Shown in pieces: positions 5,930-20,296 of a DNA stretch of 48,552 bases. How positions within the stretch are numbered: position 1 is the stretch's first letter; the number at the start of each line of letters is the position of its first letter. Below the pieces are notes generated by a model, which searched no databases, was not told the origin of the DNA, and saw only the letters and a list, made by a program, of their open reading frames with translations. A program made the translations under genes and the position numbers. Source of the stretch: an uncultured Anaeromyxobacter sp. (lineage in GTDB: Bacteria > Myxococcota > Myxococcia > Myxococcales > Anaeromyxobacteraceae); contig CAIQRS010000198.1 of the NCBI GenBank assembly GCA_903874275.1, positions 1 to 48,552 on the forward strand, given 5' to 3'.

Positions 5930-7510
5930 ATGCGCAAGTCCACGCTACTCTCCGCTGCACTCATCCTCGGTCCTGCCGCGGCGTTCGCCGCCGGCATCAA
6001 CGGGATCACCGCGATCGAGGTCGCCGAGACGGGCGGTGTGGCCGAGGTGACCATCGGAGCCTCCAAGGCCCCGTCGTTCACCACTTTTTCGCTCGTCGAT
6101 CCCCCGCGCTTCGTGATCGACGTCTCCGAGGCCGGGCTGGACGGAGCGAAGAGGAAGGTGGCGGGCGCCGGTCAGGTGAAGGAGGTGAACGCCATCTCCT
6201 TCGGTGAAGGCACGCACGCCACGGCGCGCATCACCGTCACGTTCGTCGGTGTCGTCGAACCGCCCGACGTGGTGGTCTCCGGAAACCGGATCGTCCTCCG
6301 CGTGCAGCCCCCGCAGCCCCCGAAGGGCGCGATGGTCGCGGCTGCGCCGGTCGCAAGGCCCCCGCCGGCCCCGGCTCCGCCTCCGGAGCCCGCTCCGGCG
6401 CCGGCAGTCGCCGCCGCTCCACCGCCACCTGCTCCCGCTCCGGCGCCGGCAGTCGCCGCCGCTCCACCGCCACCTGCTCCCGTCGCCACCACGTCTGCCG
6501 TTGCCGCAACGGCAGTTGCTTCACCGGCGCCCGCCGCCAGCGCTTCCGGGGCAGTACCGTCCCGGATTCCCGCTCCCGTGCCGCCGCCTGGATCGCCGGT
6601 CGCGGCCGCAACGGCTCCGGCCGTCGCCGCGTCGCCCGTCGCCGCGTCGCCGCGGCCTGCTCCCCCCGCACCAGCGCCGACGGTCGCCGCCGCTCCGCCG
6701 CCGGCTTCTCCCGCGGGTGCTCCCGCCGCCATCCCCAAGGCCGCCGTGACCGCCACGGGATCTGCTCCACCTGCACCCGTTGCCACGGCGGCACCCGTCG
6801 TATCGACCGCAGCCGCCGCCGATGCGAAGGCAGCAGCGGACGCCAAGGCCGCCGCCGAAGCCCGGGCCGCCGCCGATGCGAGGGCCGCAGCGGACGCGAA
6901 GGCCGCCGCCGAAGCCCGGGCCGCCGCCGATGCGAAGGCAGCAGCGGACGCGAAGGTCGCCGCTGAGGCTCGGGCCGCTGCTGAAGCGAAGGCCGCCGCC
7001 GACGCGAAGGCCGCCGCCGATGCGAAGTCTGCCGTCGCCGCCGCACAGAAGCCGGCACCGGCACCGGCCCCGGTCGCCGCGAAGCCCGCGCCCGCAGCCA
7101 AGCCCGCGCCCGCCCCCAGCCCCGCCGCCGAGCGCAACGAGGTCGAGTTCCTCGGCTTCAAGCAGACCGCCACCGGTTCCCGGGTCTTCATCCGTCTCCG
7201 CTCGACTCCGAAGTTCAGCGTTTCGGAGCCCCAGGAGAATCTGATCCGGGTCGAACTCCCGAACACGGGGGTCCCGCTCCGCAACGACCTGAAGGCGCTC
7301 GACACGTCCTTCTTCCCGACCGCGGTGGCGAAGGTCACCCCGGTCCGGCAGGGCAGGAGCTACGTCCTCGAGATCCGGCTCCGCGAGCGCGTGGCCTGGC
7401 AGCAGCGGATCGAGGGGACGACGCTGTCCCTCGACTTCGACCGGCCGGCAGCGCCCACGACGCCCCCGGCGCCGGCGAAGGCAGCCAGCCCGGCCAAGCC
7501 GGGCAAGTAG
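5930..7510 (+). CDS. Secreted protein with two AMIN-like domains joined by a Pro/Ala linker and an Ala-rich helix
   Basis: The product is 526 residues. A Sec signal peptide covers residues 1-20 (cleavage near AFAAG). Residues 22-125 form an AMIN-type beta domain, the kind that localises PilQ, FimV and AmiC in the periplasm. Residues 126-294 are a low-complexity Pro/Ala linker. Residues 295-366 are twelve hexapeptides of the form AAA[DE]A[KR], predicted as a charged, TolA-like helix. After a second Pro/Ala stretch, residues 403-504 (NEVEFLGFKQ ... LSLDF) look like another AMIN domain. The ATG has GGGAG upstream. The next gene, four bases on, is an LptD-like outer-membrane protein, so an envelope or periplasm-spanning role is likely. 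No enzymatic motif is visible. The partner is unknown. Confidence 0.8.
   Translation: MRKSTLLSAALILGPAAAFAAGINGITAIEVAETGGVAEVTIGASKAPSFTTFSLVDPPRFVIDVSEAGLDGAKRKVAGAGQVKEVNAISFGEGTHATARITVTFVGVVEPPDVVVSGNRIVLRVQPPQPPKGAMVAAAPVARPPPAPAPPPEPAPAPAVAAAPPPPAPAPAPAVAAAPPPPAPVATTSAVAATAVASPAPAASASGAVPSRIPAPVPPPGSPVAAATAPAVAASPVAASPRPAPPAPAPTVAAAPPPASPAGAPAAIPKAAVTATGSAPPAPVATAAPVVSTAAAADAKAAADAKAAAEARAAADARAAADAKAAAEARAAADAKAAADAKVAAEARAAAEAKAAADAKAAADAKSAVAAAQKPAPAPAPVAAKPAPAAKPAPAPSPAAERNEVEFLGFKQTATGSRVFIRLRSTPKFSVSEPQENLIRVELPNTGVPLRNDLKALDTSFFPTAVAKVTPVRQGRSYVLEIRLRERVAWQQRIEGTTLSLDFDRPAAPTTPPAPAKAASPAKPGK
6391..6480 (+). repeat. Two tandem 45-bp repeats inside the AMIN protein gene
   Basis: Two near-identical 45-base units lie head to tail, encoding APAPAVAAAPPPPAP twice in the Pro/Ala linker. 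The identity at DNA level points to a recent in-frame duplication, and copy number may vary between strains. Confidence 0.8.
6812..7027 (+). repeat. Twelve 18-bp repeats encoding AAA[DE]A[KR]
   Basis: Exactly twelve 18-base units encode AAADAK, AAAEAR and close variants (one VAAEAR). The codons vary between units (gcagca, gccgcc; gac, gat), so the array is older than the 45-bp duplication upstream or has been selected against exact repeats. The product is expected to be a long alpha helix like the TolA stalk. Confidence 0.9.
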
Positions 7511-7513
7511 CGG

Positions 7514-10090
7514 GTGACGCGGCCGCTCGCTCTCCTCGCCGGGCTGCTGCTCCTCCTCCCGGGCGCGGTCCGGAGCGCCACGGCCTCGCTCCCGGGCCCC
7601 GGAGGACCGGTGGAGGTCGAGGCCGACCTCGTCACCTACGACGCGGCCCGTGAGCGCTTCCTCCTCGAGGGCGGCGTCCGGATCCGCCGCGGGGCGGTCC
7701 TGCTGCGTGCCCGGACCGGCAGCTACGACCCGCGCACCGGCGAGGTGGACGCCACCGGCGACGTGCTCCTCACCGGGCCGGGGAGGGTGGTCGCGGCCGA
7801 GGGGATCCACGCCGTCCTGGACGGCGCCTGGGAGGCCCGCGGCGTCCTGGCCTTCTACAAGGACACGCCGCTCGACCTCTCCCGCGACGCCACCATCGCC
7901 GAGGCCGAGAAGGACGGGAGGAACCGGCTCTCGGTGCGGGCCGACCGCGCCGCCGGAACCGTCCCCGGCGGCGACGCGCCCTCCCGCTTCTCGGCCGAGG
8001 GGGTCCGGCTCACGCTCTGCGACTGCTGCGGCGGGGCGCCCTCCTGGGAGATCCGCGCGGAGCGCGCAGAGATCGAGCCCGGGAAGACCGCCACCCTGAC
8101 CTGGCCCATCGTCTACGTCACGCCGCGCTTCCTCTTCATCGACGAACCCATCCCGGTCCTGCCGCTCCCCTGGCTGCAAGTGCCGCTCTCCGGGCGGCAG
8201 ACCGGCTTCCTCTTCCCCATGGTGGACGTCGGCTCGCGCACCGGCTGGTGGCTGGCCGAGCCCTTCTTCCTGACCCTGGGGGAGAGCCACGACCTCACCT
8301 TCACCGCCGGTTACGCCTTCGGTCCGCCGCAGTCCACGGTGGACTCCCGGATCGCCGAGGGGCAGAACCCGGGGGTGCGCGGCGCGGGCGGCGCGATCGA
8401 GTACCGCTGGGCCCCTTTGCCCGGAGTGAAGGGCGAGGCGAAGCTCCTCCTCCAGCACGACACCCTGGCGTATCGCTGGAAGCCGGAGAGCGGGGTCCGG
8501 ACCGGGATCGCGCTGCGCAGCGAGGCCCGACCGTCCCCGGGGAGCTTCGTGAACGCCGAGGCCTTCCTGGTCGGCGACCCGGCCTGGTCCCAGGACTTCG
8601 TGGGCGACATCCTCCAGCGCGACGCCTCCTACTACCGGTCGTCGCTGGCGGCCGGGTACGCCTTTCCCCACCTGCTGCTCGAGGGGAACCTCACCTACGT
8701 CGAGCAGATCGGGACCCTGGGCCAGCCGAGCCCTCCCGGCCAGCCGGTGATCCCGCTCGTCCCCTTCGGCTTCCTGGGCGGGAGCGTGCCCTCCTTCCAC
8801 CGGCTCCCCGCCATCTCGGCGACGCTCCTGCCGATCCAGGTGGTGGGGCCGCTCGCGGTCTCGGCCCAGGCAGGGATCGCCCGCTTCGCGCCCCTCTCCG
8901 GGATCACCGACCAGAGCGTGAACGGACTCGGCCCCGGCGAGCGCGGCTGGCTGGGGCCGGCGCCGCCGCCGGGCGACGCCTGGGTCGCCGGGCAGCGCCT
9001 CTCCGCCTCACGGGCCTGGGCCCGGGCCGAGCTCCGCGCCCCGCTCTCCCTCGGGGGCGTCGCCCTGCTGGAGCCCTGGGTGGCCGGGAACGGTGCGACC
9101 TACCTCTTCGGCGGCGACGCCCAGCCCGCCCTGGCCAGCGGGTGGGTGAGCGGCGGGGCCGTCCTCGGAACGTCCATCTCCCGCAACTTCGGCGCCGGCC
9201 CCGACGCCCTCCGTCACGTCATCGAGCCGCGCGTCGAGTGGCGGGGCTCCACCGGCATCGGCGGCACGCCGCTCCCCGCCTACGGCTACGACGAGCGGGA
9301 CGCCGCCCCGGTCCTCCCCGGCGCTCCCTGCCTCGCTCCGCCGTCGGGCGTCAGCGGAGCCTGTCTGCCGCTGCGGACCCTCTCGGCCACCTTGCCCGGC
9401 GGCTTCCAGCAGATGCGCGTCTCGCTGCGCAACCGGCTCGTCGCCCCCGGGAAGGACACGCCCAGCGTCACGCGGATCGACCTCGACGTCGGGCAGGACC
9501 TCGACCTGTCCAGCGGGCAGCTGGGCGAGTCCTTCGTCCGGGGAGCCGCCGAGTGGGGGCCGGTGCAGGGGCTCGTGCTGGCCCGGTTCCTCGCCTTCGG
9601 CGCGGCGCCGGCGGCCGGGACCTGGGGCTCCCTCGACGCGGGGTTCCTGGACCACTTCACCGAGATCCGCTTCGACCTCGCCGCCGCCGATTCCCGCGGC
9701 GACCGGCTCACCCTGGGATTCCTGGCGCTCTCCTCGGCGTCCTCGGCGACGCTCCGGGCAGGGCTCGACCCCCTCTTCGACGCGCGCCCGGTGCCCTTCC
9801 AGACCTTCGGGCAGGGCACGGCGGGACTTCGAGTTCACGTGGCCGGCGGCCTCGACGTCCAGTGGGACACGCTCTTCTCCGTGCGGACCGTCTACGCCAC
9901 CCCGTGCAGCGGCGGCACGCCCGCCCCGGTGGGCCCCTCCATGCAGCAGAACACCGTCACCGCCTCCTGGAATTCGCCGTGCAACTGCTGGCGCGCCCTG
10001 GTCCGGGTGCAGGTCTCCCAGTGCGGCTACTACGGCGTGACCGCGGGGCTCGACCTCTCCGCCATCACCGGCCTCACGCTGATCCCGTAG
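7514..10090 (+). CDS. lptD: LPS-assembly protein LptD-like outer-membrane protein
   Basis: The product is 858 residues from a GTG start four bases after the previous stop. A signal peptide spans residues 1-21. Residues about 30-190 have the OstA/LptA beta-jellyroll pattern (VEVEADLVTYDAARERFLLEGGV, then TGDVLLTGPGR). The rest (from about 215) alternates aromatic and polar residues and Gly/Pro turns, as in the LptD barrel, with the conserved plug-side segment YVTPRFLFIDEPIPVLPLPW. Cysteines come in groups (CDCC in the N-terminal domain; CNCW and QC near the C terminus), compatible with the inter-domain disulfides known in LptD. The role is final insertion of lipopolysaccharide in the outer leaflet. 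The neighbouring AMIN-domain protein may help assemble it (inference). Confidence 0.85.
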   Translation: MTRPLALLAGLLLLLPGAVRSATASLPGPGGPVEVEADLVTYDAARERFLLEGGVRIRRGAVLLRARTGSYDPRTGEVDATGDVLLTGPGRVVAAEGIHAVLDGAWEARGVLAFYKDTPLDLSRDATIAEAEKDGRNRLSVRADRAAGTVPGGDAPSRFSAEGVRLTLCDCCGGAPSWEIRAERAEIEPGKTATLTWPIVYVTPRFLFIDEPIPVLPLPWLQVPLSGRQTGFLFPMVDVGSRTGWWLAEPFFLTLGESHDLTFTAGYAFGPPQSTVDSRIAEGQNPGVRGAGGAIEYRWAPLPGVKGEAKLLLQHDTLAYRWKPESGVRTGIALRSEARPSPGSFVNAEAFLVGDPAWSQDFVGDILQRDASYYRSSLAAGYAFPHLLLEGNLTYVEQIGTLGQPSPPGQPVIPLVPFGFLGGSVPSFHRLPAISATLLPIQVVGPLAVSAQAGIARFAPLSGITDQSVNGLGPGERGWLGPAPPPGDAWVAGQRLSASRAWARAELRAPLSLGGVALLEPWVAGNGATYLFGGDAQPALASGWVSGGAVLGTSISRNFGAGPDALRHVIEPRVEWRGSTGIGGTPLPAYGYDERDAAPVLPGAPCLAPPSGVSGACLPLRTLSATLPGGFQQMRVSLRNRLVAPGKDTPSVTRIDLDVGQDLDLSSGQLGESFVRGAAEWGPVQGLVLARFLAFGAAPAAGTWGSLDAGFLDHFTEIRFDLAAADSRGDRLTLGFLALSSASSATLRAGLDPLFDARPVPFQTFGQGTAGLRVHVAGGLDVQWDTLFSVRTVYATPCSGGTPAPVGPSMQQNTVTASWNSPCNCWRALVRVQVSQCGYYGVTAGLDLSAITGLTLIP

Positions 10091-15064: not shown

Positions 15065-15547
15065 TCAGGCGGCGCGCCGGGAGCCGGGCGCCGCGCCGAG
15101 GAGGCTCGCCACCCGCTCCTCGCGGTGGTCGAAGACGCGCGCCAGCGTGCGACGCACCATGAGCGGGTGCGCGACCTCTCCGAGCGCGCCCAGCGGCAGG
15201 CGGTACTCCACCCGGTCGGTGACGCGCGTGCCCCCGTTCACGATGAAGAAGGTGTGGGTGTGCTGCCAGAGGGCGTAGGGACCACGCTCCTGGACGTCCA
15301 CGAAGCGCAGGCCGGGCTCCCAGGCCGCGATGCGGGTCCTCCAGTGGAACGGGATGCCGAACAGGGAGAGCCGGTACTCGATGCGCGAGCCCATGTCGAG
15401 CGAGGTGGGCACCGGAGGGATGATCGAAAACCTCAAGAATGCCGGGGTGATGGCTTCCAGGTTCCGCGGGTCGGCGAAGAAGGAGAAGACCTCGGCGCGG
15501 GGCAGGGGGACGATCTGGCTTCGCTCGAGAATGTGAATCCGGCTCAT
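15065..15547 (-). CDS. SRPBCC (START/Bet v1-like) family protein
   Basis: The product is 160 residues. The helix-grip signature is visible: strand plus PRAEVFSFFADPRNLEAITPAFL (residues 17-38), then RIEYRLSLFGIPFHWRTRIAAWEPGLRFVDVQERGPYALWQHTHTF (55-100) and a long C-terminal helix with R-R-x-L-A-R-V-F. This resembles COG4276-type ligand-binding proteins often found beside LitR/CarH regulators. The ATG at 15547 is preferred over a GTG-less upstream ATG (15598) because homologous SRPBCC proteins start just before the first strand and GAGG lies upstream. It is divergent from the cobalamin-type MerR gene, which suggests that this regulator controls it. The ligand is unknown. Confidence 0.8.
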   Translation of the reverse strand: MSRIHILERSQIVPLPRAEVFSFFADPRNLEAITPAFLRFSIIPPVPTSLDMGSRIEYRLSLFGIPFHWRTRIAAWEPGLRFVDVQERGPYALWQHTHTFFIVNGGTRVTDRVEYRLPLGALGEVAHPLMVRRTLARVFDHREERVASLLGAAPGSRRAA

Positions 15548-15591
15548 CCGTGACCTCGCTGCCTGGTGTGCGACATATCGTTGATCGTAAT

Positions 15592-15648
15592 TTGTCATGG
15601 ATAAAGGCGTGACAAAGTCCTTGCAACGGTTTCCGGTGTCGCTAGAGA
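15592..15648. promoter_or_regulatory. Divergent promoter region with a TTGTCA/TGACAA inverted repeat
   Basis: TTGTCA (15592-15597) and its inverse TGACAA (15610-15615) are 12 bases apart in a locally AT-richer stretch. Rightward, TTGCAA (15621-15626), a 16-base spacer and TAGAGA (15643-15648) would start transcription at or next to the MerR ATG (15655). The inverted repeat is a candidate operator for that regulator. Confidence 0.5.
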
Positions 15649-15654
15649 GTCCTG

Positions 15655-16581
15655 ATGATTCCAGAGACCGAGAGGCCGTCCGGCAAGTACCCGATCCGCG
15701 TCGTCGCCCGCCTCACCGGGATCCCCATCGACACGCTTCGAGCCTGGGAGCGGCGGTACGGGGCCGTCGAGCCTTCGCGGGACGACCGCGGCCGGCTCTA
15801 CGACGACGTGGATCTCCAGAAGCTCAAGCTGCTCCGGCGGCTCGTGGAGCGCGGCCACGCCATCGGCCGCATCGCCAACCTCGGAGAGCCAGAGCTCGGG
15901 AAGCTCCTCGAGGCCGGGCTCGAGCCGTCCGACCGCGGCGGGAAGGCCGACGCGGTGGACCTCGTGGGGCTGCTCGACGCCGTCGATCGGTACGACCTCG
16001 CGGCGGTGGACCGGAAGCTCGGGAAGCTCGCCGCCGTGCTGGCGTCCCGCGAGATGGTGCACGAGGTGGTCCTGCCTTTCCTGCGCGAGGTGGGGAAGGG
16101 CTGGCAGGAGGGGCGGTTCACCGTCGCCCAGGAGCACATGGTCTCGGCTTCCCTGCGCGGCCTGCTCGGCTCGCTGATCCGGGTCCAGGCGCCACGCGAG
16201 AGCCGGACCGGCCTGGTCTTCGCCACGCCTCCCGGGGAGCGGCACGAGCTCGGGCTCGCCGCCGCCGCCATGCTCGCCGCGGCCGGGGGGCTCGGGGTCG
16301 TCTACCTGGGCGCCGACCTGCCCGCGGCGGACATCGTCGAGGCCACCCGGAGGACCGGAGCCCGGGCGGTGGTCCTGGCCATGACCCGCCTCGACACCGG
16401 CCCGTCGGCCGTGGATTCGGTCCGCGCCGTCGTCGATGGAGTTCCAGCCGGCGTGGAGGTCTACGTGGGGGGAGCGGCGGCCGAGGCGCGCCCCGAGGAC
16501 GTGGCGCACGCCGGCGGCACCCTGCTCCAGAACTTCGACGCGCTCGAGCACGCCTACCGCGCCCTGGGCGGCCGGTTCTAG
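15655..16581 (+). CDS. MerR-type regulator with cobalamin-binding domain (CarH/LitR-like, probable B12 photoreceptor)
   Basis: The product is 308 residues. Residues 12-80 are a MerR helix-turn-helix (YPIRVVARLTGIPIDTLRAWERRYGAVEPSR in parts). Residues about 100-180 are the helical cap, and 183-300 the Rossmann cobalamin domain. The signature Wx9EH is present (W150 to E160-H161), and the lower-axial histidine motif ExHxxG reads ERHELG (H197). In CarH, these features bind 5'-deoxyadenosylcobalamin and make the protein release DNA in light. No photochemistry can be inferred beyond this homology. It is divergent from an SRPBCC gene across 107 bases with an inverted repeat, and ends ten bases from the convergent FHA gene. 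Confidence 0.87.
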   Translation: MIPETERPSGKYPIRVVARLTGIPIDTLRAWERRYGAVEPSRDDRGRLYDDVDLQKLKLLRRLVERGHAIGRIANLGEPELGKLLEAGLEPSDRGGKADAVDLVGLLDAVDRYDLAAVDRKLGKLAAVLASREMVHEVVLPFLREVGKGWQEGRFTVAQEHMVSASLRGLLGSLIRVQAPRESRTGLVFATPPGERHELGLAAAAMLAAAGGLGVVYLGADLPAADIVEATRRTGARAVVLAMTRLDTGPSAVDSVRAVVDGVPAGVEVYVGGAAAEARPEDVAHAGGTLLQNFDALEHAYRALGGRF

Positions 16582-19780: not shown

Positions 19781-20296
19781 ATGGCGGCAATCCAGAACCC
19801 GTTGGGCCCGATCTTCAAGGTCGGGGACAAGGCAGTCTACCCTGGCCAGGGCGTCGGCGAGGTCATGGGCATCGAGCACAAGGAGGTCGCCGGCCAGCGG
19901 CAGTCCTTCTACGTGCTCCGCATCCTCGACAACGGGATGAAGATCATGATCCCGATGAACAAGGTCGGCTCGGTCGGCCTGCGCGAGATCATCGGCGACA
20001 AGGAGGTCCGCAAGGTCTACACCATCCTCCGCGAGAAGGAGGTCTCGGTCGATTCCACCACCTGGAACCGCCGGTACCGGGAGTACATGGACAAGATCAA
20101 GACCGGCTCGGTCTTCGAGATCGCCGAGGTGCTGCGCGATCTCTACCTGCTCCGCTCCGACAAGGACCTCTCCTTCGGCGAGCGCAAGATGCTCGACACG
20201 GCACGGTCGCTGCTCATCAAGGAACTGGCCATCGCCAAGGACTGCGACGAGCAGGACGTCGAGACGGAGCTCCGGAAGATCTTCAACATCACCTGA
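19781..20296 (+). CDS. cdnL: CarD/CdnL-family RNA polymerase-binding transcription factor
   Basis: The product is 171 residues. The N-terminal Tudor-like RNAP-interaction domain (residues 10-68) has FKVGDKAVYPGQGVGEVMGIEH and the strands FYVLRILDNGMKIMIPMNK. The C-terminal half is helical and includes the conserved tryptophan segment TTWNRRYREYMDKIKTGS and LSFGERKMLDTARSLLIKELA. The length and the absence of an HMGA-like tail match CdnL (the essential stand-alone factor of myxobacteria that stabilises open promoter complexes) rather than the longer CarD. It has its own promoter and is followed by a strong stem-loop, so it appears to be monocistronic and abundant. Confidence 0.93.
   Translation: MAAIQNPLGPIFKVGDKAVYPGQGVGEVMGIEHKEVAGQRQSFYVLRILDNGMKIMIPMNKVGSVGLREIIGDKEVRKVYTILREKEVSVDSTTWNRRYREYMDKIKTGSVFEIAEVLRDLYLLRSDKDLSFGERKMLDTARSLLIKELAIAKDCDEQDVETELRKIFNIT

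Follow-up and report, generated by a model that had tools for sequence, protein, structure and literature searches.

A CarH-type cobalamin regulator paired with an SRPBCC gene in Anaeromyxobacteraceae apparently lacking carotenogenesis

Results

We consider it somewhat probable that the divergent gene pair described here is controlled by an adenosylcobalamin (AdoCbl)-dependent dark repressor of the CarH family, which acts on its own gene and on that of an SRPBCC protein, has been freed from carotenogenesis, and carries a weakened or altered light switch. The window analysed is the entire 48.6-kb contig C198 of a 5.07-Mb genome (G000, 98.9% complete), whose named close relatives are Anaeromyxobacteraceae MAGs. 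The regulator gene (15655-16581, + strand, ATG at 15655) encodes 308 aa and the SRPBCC gene (15065-15547, - strand, ATG at 15547-15545) 160 aa, the two start codons enclosing a gap at 15548-15654. Re-reading of the coordinates placed both genes, the gap and its inverted repeat exactly where an earlier sequence-only reading of this DNA had located them.

The pair is flanked by purA on one side and by FHA and ComEC-type genes on the other. All four members of the genus have it beside purA, three of them with a ComEC-type gene on the other side, and an assembly artefact or contaminant is unlikely, because the purA-SRPBCC-regulator order recurs in independent genomes. Of the genomes sampled from the order, only those of this genus have the two genes side by side; in the remainder, for every genome with both listed, comparison of coordinates put them a long way apart or on separate contigs. 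Elsewhere in the window, a CarD/CdnL-type RNA polymerase-binding protein (CarD_TRCF_RID and CarD_C) is encoded at 19781-20296 (+ strand), and CarD/CdnL-like genes lie at the equivalent place in G015 and G016.

Domains and conserved residues of the regulator

Pfam divides the regulator into a MerR helix-turn-helix domain (residues 12-76; PF13411, E 1e-15), a four-helix B12-binding_2 domain (106-172; PF02607) and a Rossmann B12-binding domain (188-285; PF02310), with both cobalamin-binding subdomains above cut-off and a recognition helix, RAWERRY, that fits RxWERRY. The assignment also draws on matches to the CarH chains 3whp, 5c8d and 8c31 of the PDB and on aligned residues, the closest solved relatives being Thermus CarH chains over residues 8-299 (5c8d, E ~1e-29). 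The three-domain plan is that of Thermus thermophilus CarH (LitR class I), to which the regulator is about 33-37% identical. In the alignment, W131 of the Thermus protein corresponds to W150 and E141-H142 to E160-H161, completing the Wx9EH motif, H177 to H197 within the lower-axial His motif D/ExHx2G (E195-R-H197-x2-G200), the dimer pair R176-D201 to R196-D221, and G192 to G212, whereas G160 and H132 are changed to A179 and Q151. All four genomes of the genus keep the Trp and Glu-His of Wx9EH, the Arg-Asp pair and the B12-binding His. The alignment thus bears out W150, E160-H161 and H197 as the CarH hallmarks singled out by the sequence-only reading, and its assignment of the protein to the CarH-type AdoCbl regulators is well supported by domains and residues.

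The NCBIfam CarH equivalog model NF052513 gave 131.5 bits over the full length of the regulator, under its cut-off of 400 bits; judged by its sequence, the protein is a relative within the CarH family and not a CarH equivalog. Its domains and motifs place it in the CarH/LitR class I family without the usual carotenoid target, control of carotenoid genes being usual for CarH and class I LitR but not defining. The wing is shortened across the family (RD(D/E)RG-RLY against RTPxGyRvY in Myxococcaceae; RDDRG-RLY in the window regulator against RTPGGHRLY in Thermus), which may explain the altered operator repeat described below. With a cobalamin adenosyltransferase (PF01923, E 1e-59) among its genes, the organism can convert cobalamin to AdoCbl.

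Carotenoid and photolyase genes

Unlike Thermus thermophilus CarH, the regulator has no adjoining phytoene synthase, photolyase or LdrP. That no carotenoid gene is linked to it in the window had been remarked before, and the absence extends to the whole genome: phytoene/squalene synthase (PF00494) was not found in G000 (~99% complete) or in the other three genomes of the genus, and the photolyase/cryptochrome C-terminal family had no match in the window genome. Seven of the ten family genomes with the regulator lack PF00494, several of the seven being incomplete MAGs. The proposal of a light response with a non-carotenoid output is accordingly plausible as to its output, which the genome-wide absence of PF00494 strengthens, and weakened as to light sensing by Gln151.

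The genome holds a second Wx9EH cobalamin regulator (L051, G000:C204:5000-20000; 7399-8196, - strand), with an HTH_17/MerR-like domain and both B12 domains, in which Arg follows the Trp of Wx9EH. Divergent from it runs a cluster (CMAS, FAD amine oxidase, DUF1365, CMAS and other genes) that looks like photo-oxidative-stress clusters containing cyclopropane-fatty-acid synthase. We considered this protein as the actual light regulator of the pair and set it aside, because its short, HTH_17-type DNA-binding domain differs and no common site was seen in its gap.

The SRPBCC partner

The divergent partner was assigned to the SRPBCC/Polyketide_cyc(2) proteins by Pfam and PDB matches, in agreement with the sequence-only reading. 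PF03364 is just over its cut-off (24.6 against 23.4 bits) and PF10604 just under (25.1 against 27.4 bits). The protein matches residues 4-118 of the SulA-family epimerase PDB 3oh8 (E 6e-7), a weak match over residues 8-122, and a low-confidence model shows the expected order of strands and helices; AlphaFold models built on 3 close sequences were of low quality (mean pLDDT 47.6 and 52.0). Unlike 3oh8, the window protein stands alone, and relatives farther away in the order mostly lie within open frames of about 450-700 codons, where they are probably fused to an epimerase. From the fold family, a lipid or isoprenoid may be guessed as the ligand.

The earlier statement that SRPBCC proteins of this type are reported beside LitR/CarH found no support: a search of open-access papers found no such link, and two annotated Thermus carH neighbourhoods contain no SRPBCC gene. 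The sister-genus orthologues (58-63%) have other locations, and three belong to genomes that lack the regulator; the job of the protein is therefore independent of this control. In the sister genus (L062, L065, L066) the SRPBCC gene adjoins a dihydroorotate-dehydrogenase-like gene, named from sequence, and not CarH. In other genera (L045, L047, L049, L050) the CarH homologue adjoins hydrogenase-maturation-like genes without SRPBCC, a CobW/HypB/UreG-domain gene having been tested in L047 and the others named from sequence; a lactate-racemase-like gene lies beside the CarH homologue in G005 (tested) and, by resemblance, in G020 and G023.

Gln151 and the putative light switch

The residue after Trp150 is Gln151, at the position of the His (His132) that takes over the cobalt in light-exposed Thermus CarH (PMC10442372). 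Every genome of the genus (G000, G014, G015, G016) has Gln here, as does a more distant row (L078, G032); in other genera of the family the residue is His (G003, G005, G020, G021, G023) or Tyr (G012). With His in 25 of the 32 aligned rows, including 19/19 of the Myxococcaceae type, a His after the Trp is common but not universal in CarH and class I LitR, and not strictly defining. For the Thermus H132A variant, most of the protein was found still tetrameric after illumination, against an earlier report which, as cited there, has H132A disassemble in light; the variant still loses its adenosyl group in light, its dark structure is unaffected, and the final light state of Thermus CarH needs oxygen (PMC10442372). 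Since the dark structure of H132A is unaffected, the dark, DNA-binding form of the window regulator should be normal and its light step doubtful. Light responsiveness is plausible and yet the weakest step of our reading, because Gln151 replaces the light-state His ligand. As Gln151 cannot form the bis-His light state, the photoswitch would probably be slower, incomplete, or driven by adenosyl loss alone.

The family includes anaerobic soil and sediment organisms, which speaks for the main rival to light sensing: an AdoCbl sensor that is no photoreceptor and reports the AdoCbl supply (or redox or oxygen via the cobalt), the effect of light being small because Gln151 cannot drive the ligand switch. 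The occurrence of Gln151 throughout the genus, the tetramers of illuminated H132A, the oxygen requirement of the final light state and the failure to find photolyase and carotenoid synthase all fit such a sensor. Co-C photolysis, however, is independent of the His in question, as the adenosyl loss of H132A in light attests, and the cited account of H132A disassembly points the same way; the adenosyl contacts Trp150 and Glu160 are fully kept, and published myxobacterial CarH proteins carry the His in many, but not all, cases (PMC9304148). On balance we regard a pure AdoCbl sensor as possible but rather unlikely.

Proposed operator and promoters in the intergenic gap

The inverted repeat TTGTCA-N12-TGACAA (15592-15615) is the sole match in the window within 2 mismatches, with 0.12 expected in shuffles, and has no other exact copy in the whole genome. 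It is the inner frame of TTTGTC-N14-GACAAA (15591-15616), which all four genus members carry unchanged; nowhere else do their genomes contain it exactly, and a copy with 1 mismatch occurs at most once elsewhere. Comparison of the four gaps, of which that of G015 is the most diverged, revealed a conserved block of ~40 bp, TTTGTCATGGATAAtGGCnnGACAAAGnnnTTGCAA, in otherwise drifting sequence (window versus G016: 35/42 positions identical in the block, 28/64 outside; Fisher p 5e-5). The + strand of this block splits into three 11-bp units, the proposed operator repeats 1 (GGATAAAGGCG, 15599-15609), 2 (TGACAAAGTCC, 15610-15620) and 3 (TTGCAACGGTT, 15621-15631). The register of the first two is kept in the genus and its relatives; the third, drawn from the cross-genome comparison, is degenerate and holds the palindromic hexamer TTGCAA, identical in the window, G014 and G016.

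Upstream of their own regulators, G023 and G003 carry GGACA-like units at 11-bp spacing (GGACATATTAG/GGTCAACTGCC/GGACGTTACCT/GGACAGCCGGA and AGACATAGCCT/AGATAAACACC/GGACAATGACC, respectively), and no clear second unit was found at this place in G020 and G021. When pairs of GGACA-like units were summed, spacing 11 topped all other spacings from 5 to 30, with 4 pairs in the genus and 6 in six relatives, each matched in 0/1000 shuffles; this statistic is supportive rather than independent, because the motif was read off some of the tested sequences, which favours it. A motif-free lag test gave 15 against 1.5 expected in the genus, whose four sequences are related (0/1000 shuffles), and was borderline in the relatives (57/1000 shuffles).

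Published CarH operators are tandem 11-bp repeats, nnnnTnnACAn, which overlap -35 elements, as in Thermus thermophilus, and tolerate degeneracy, one direct repeat and two pseudorepeats being enough (PMC9304148). The ACA core is present in just one of the three window repeats (ATA, ACA, GCA), and the T of TnnACA is mostly missing from them. In proposing the inverted repeat as operator, the sequence-only reading had the place right; the conserved architecture appears better read as CarH-type tandem 11-bp direct repeats with one opposed half-site than as a palindrome.

For the operator alone, an unlikely alternative is that TTTGTC-N14-GACAAA is a genuine palindrome to which a symmetric MerR dimer binds in the manner of ordinary MerR proteins, with a possible action on promoter geometry. 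Its outer half-sites are exact throughout the genus, and the gap of G015 (L044, 4934-4970) contains a fully symmetric set of four half-sites, TTTGTC-5-TTTGTC-3-GACAAA-5-GACAAA; these also make up two opposed 11-bp tandem pairs, an arrangement that may stand midway between direct-repeat and palindromic operators. The inner GGATAA and the outlying TTGCAA, however, are as conserved as the arms in three genomes, the relatives lack the palindrome yet show GGACA repeats spaced by 11 bp, and at the Myxococcus CarA site a published palindrome was subsequently reinterpreted as direct repeats (PMC9304148). When more copies of the operator were sought across the genus, in palindromic form or as a tandem pair of repeats, only a few scattered 1-mismatch matches turned up outside this site, their sequences differing per genome; as these are about at the level of a reversed-pattern control, no wider regulon is claimed. 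Upstream of the sister-genus SRPBCC orthologues, no tandem repeats were seen by eye.

Under the tandem-repeat reading, the third repeat would hold a -35 element, TTGCAA, common to two proposed promoters: TTGCAA-N16-TAGAGA for the regulator (15621-15648, + strand; 6 nt before the ATG; spacing and TAG kept in the window, G014 and G016) and TTGCAA-N17-TATCCA for the SRPBCC gene (15598-15626, - strand; kept in the same three genomes). In these three, TTGCAA lies 16 bp from TAGrrA-like hexamers on the regulator side and 17 bp from TATCCA on the SRPBCC side. The hexamers are weak, that of the regulator being under the threshold of a generic sigma-70 scan. About 12 bp lie between the repeat block and the SRPBCC ATG in G014, which makes it very likely that the SRPBCC promoter overlaps the repeats.

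Relation to other CarH and CarA proteins

The regulator tree gathers the ten Anaeromyxobacteraceae proteins in a single supported branch (100/99), separate from the CarH/CarA rows of Myxococcaceae, and within that branch unites the four of the genus, again with support (100/97); where its root lies and where the long rows (C204, L078, Thermus) belong is uncertain. CarH and CarA of Myxococcus, Cystobacter and Sorangium are homologous repressors with operators of degenerate 11-bp repeats, and that of Sorangium CarH can serve divergent promoters (PMC9304148); in contrast to the proteins considered here, they lie in or control carotenoid clusters. A B12-independent repressor whose cobalamin domain is kept only for dimerisation or partner binding, as Myxococcus CarA arose from CarH (PMC9304148), is highly improbable, because CarA lost the Trp of Wx9EH and the genus here retains W150 and Glu-His together with the Arg-Asp pair and the B12-binding His.

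Discussion

In the mechanism that we favour, the AdoCbl-bound regulator would oligomerise in the dark, with His197 supplying the lower ligand, the adenosyl group kept in place by Trp150 and Glu160, and Arg196-Asp221 at the dimer interface. The oligomer would occupy the tandem 11-bp repeats at 15599-15631 and so cover the common -35 TTGCAA of the divergent promoters together with the SRPBCC promoter's spacer, by which we propose that both genes are silenced. Once light has removed the adenosyl group, or when AdoCbl is lacking, the operator would be freed and both the SRPBCC protein and the regulator turned on, the output being a ligand-binding protein and not carotenoids.

To the sequence-only reading, the analysis adds Gln151, the 11-bp tandem-repeat register, the genome-wide absence of phytoene synthase and photolyase, and the preservation of the pair and the ~40-bp block in the four genomes of a genus to which adjacency of the genes is confined. 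The output of the regulator, and perhaps also its signal, appears to differ from the classic carotenoid switch, in a genome apparently without carotenoid genes. More tentatively, and as a possibility that we would not call likely, a B12 switch outlived carotenogenesis in these carotenoid-less Anaeromyxobacteraceae: a CarH repressor was rewired to one SRPBCC gene, and the His-to-Gln change made it an AdoCbl or oxygen/redox sensor, or a photoreceptor whose light state differs in its chemistry. With Gln occurring naturally where the light ligand would be, these proteins also lend themselves readily to testing what His132 contributes to the photoswitch, which is disputed.

Carotenoid switching is the role for which class I CarH proteins are chiefly known. 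In contrast to a published survey, which had CarH and carotenoid genes jointly absent from Anaeromyxobacter dehalogenans (PMC9304148), a CarH-type protein and a conserved putative operator are retained here in genomes seemingly without a carotenoid pathway, and the remaining target therefore points to another B12- or light-controlled function.
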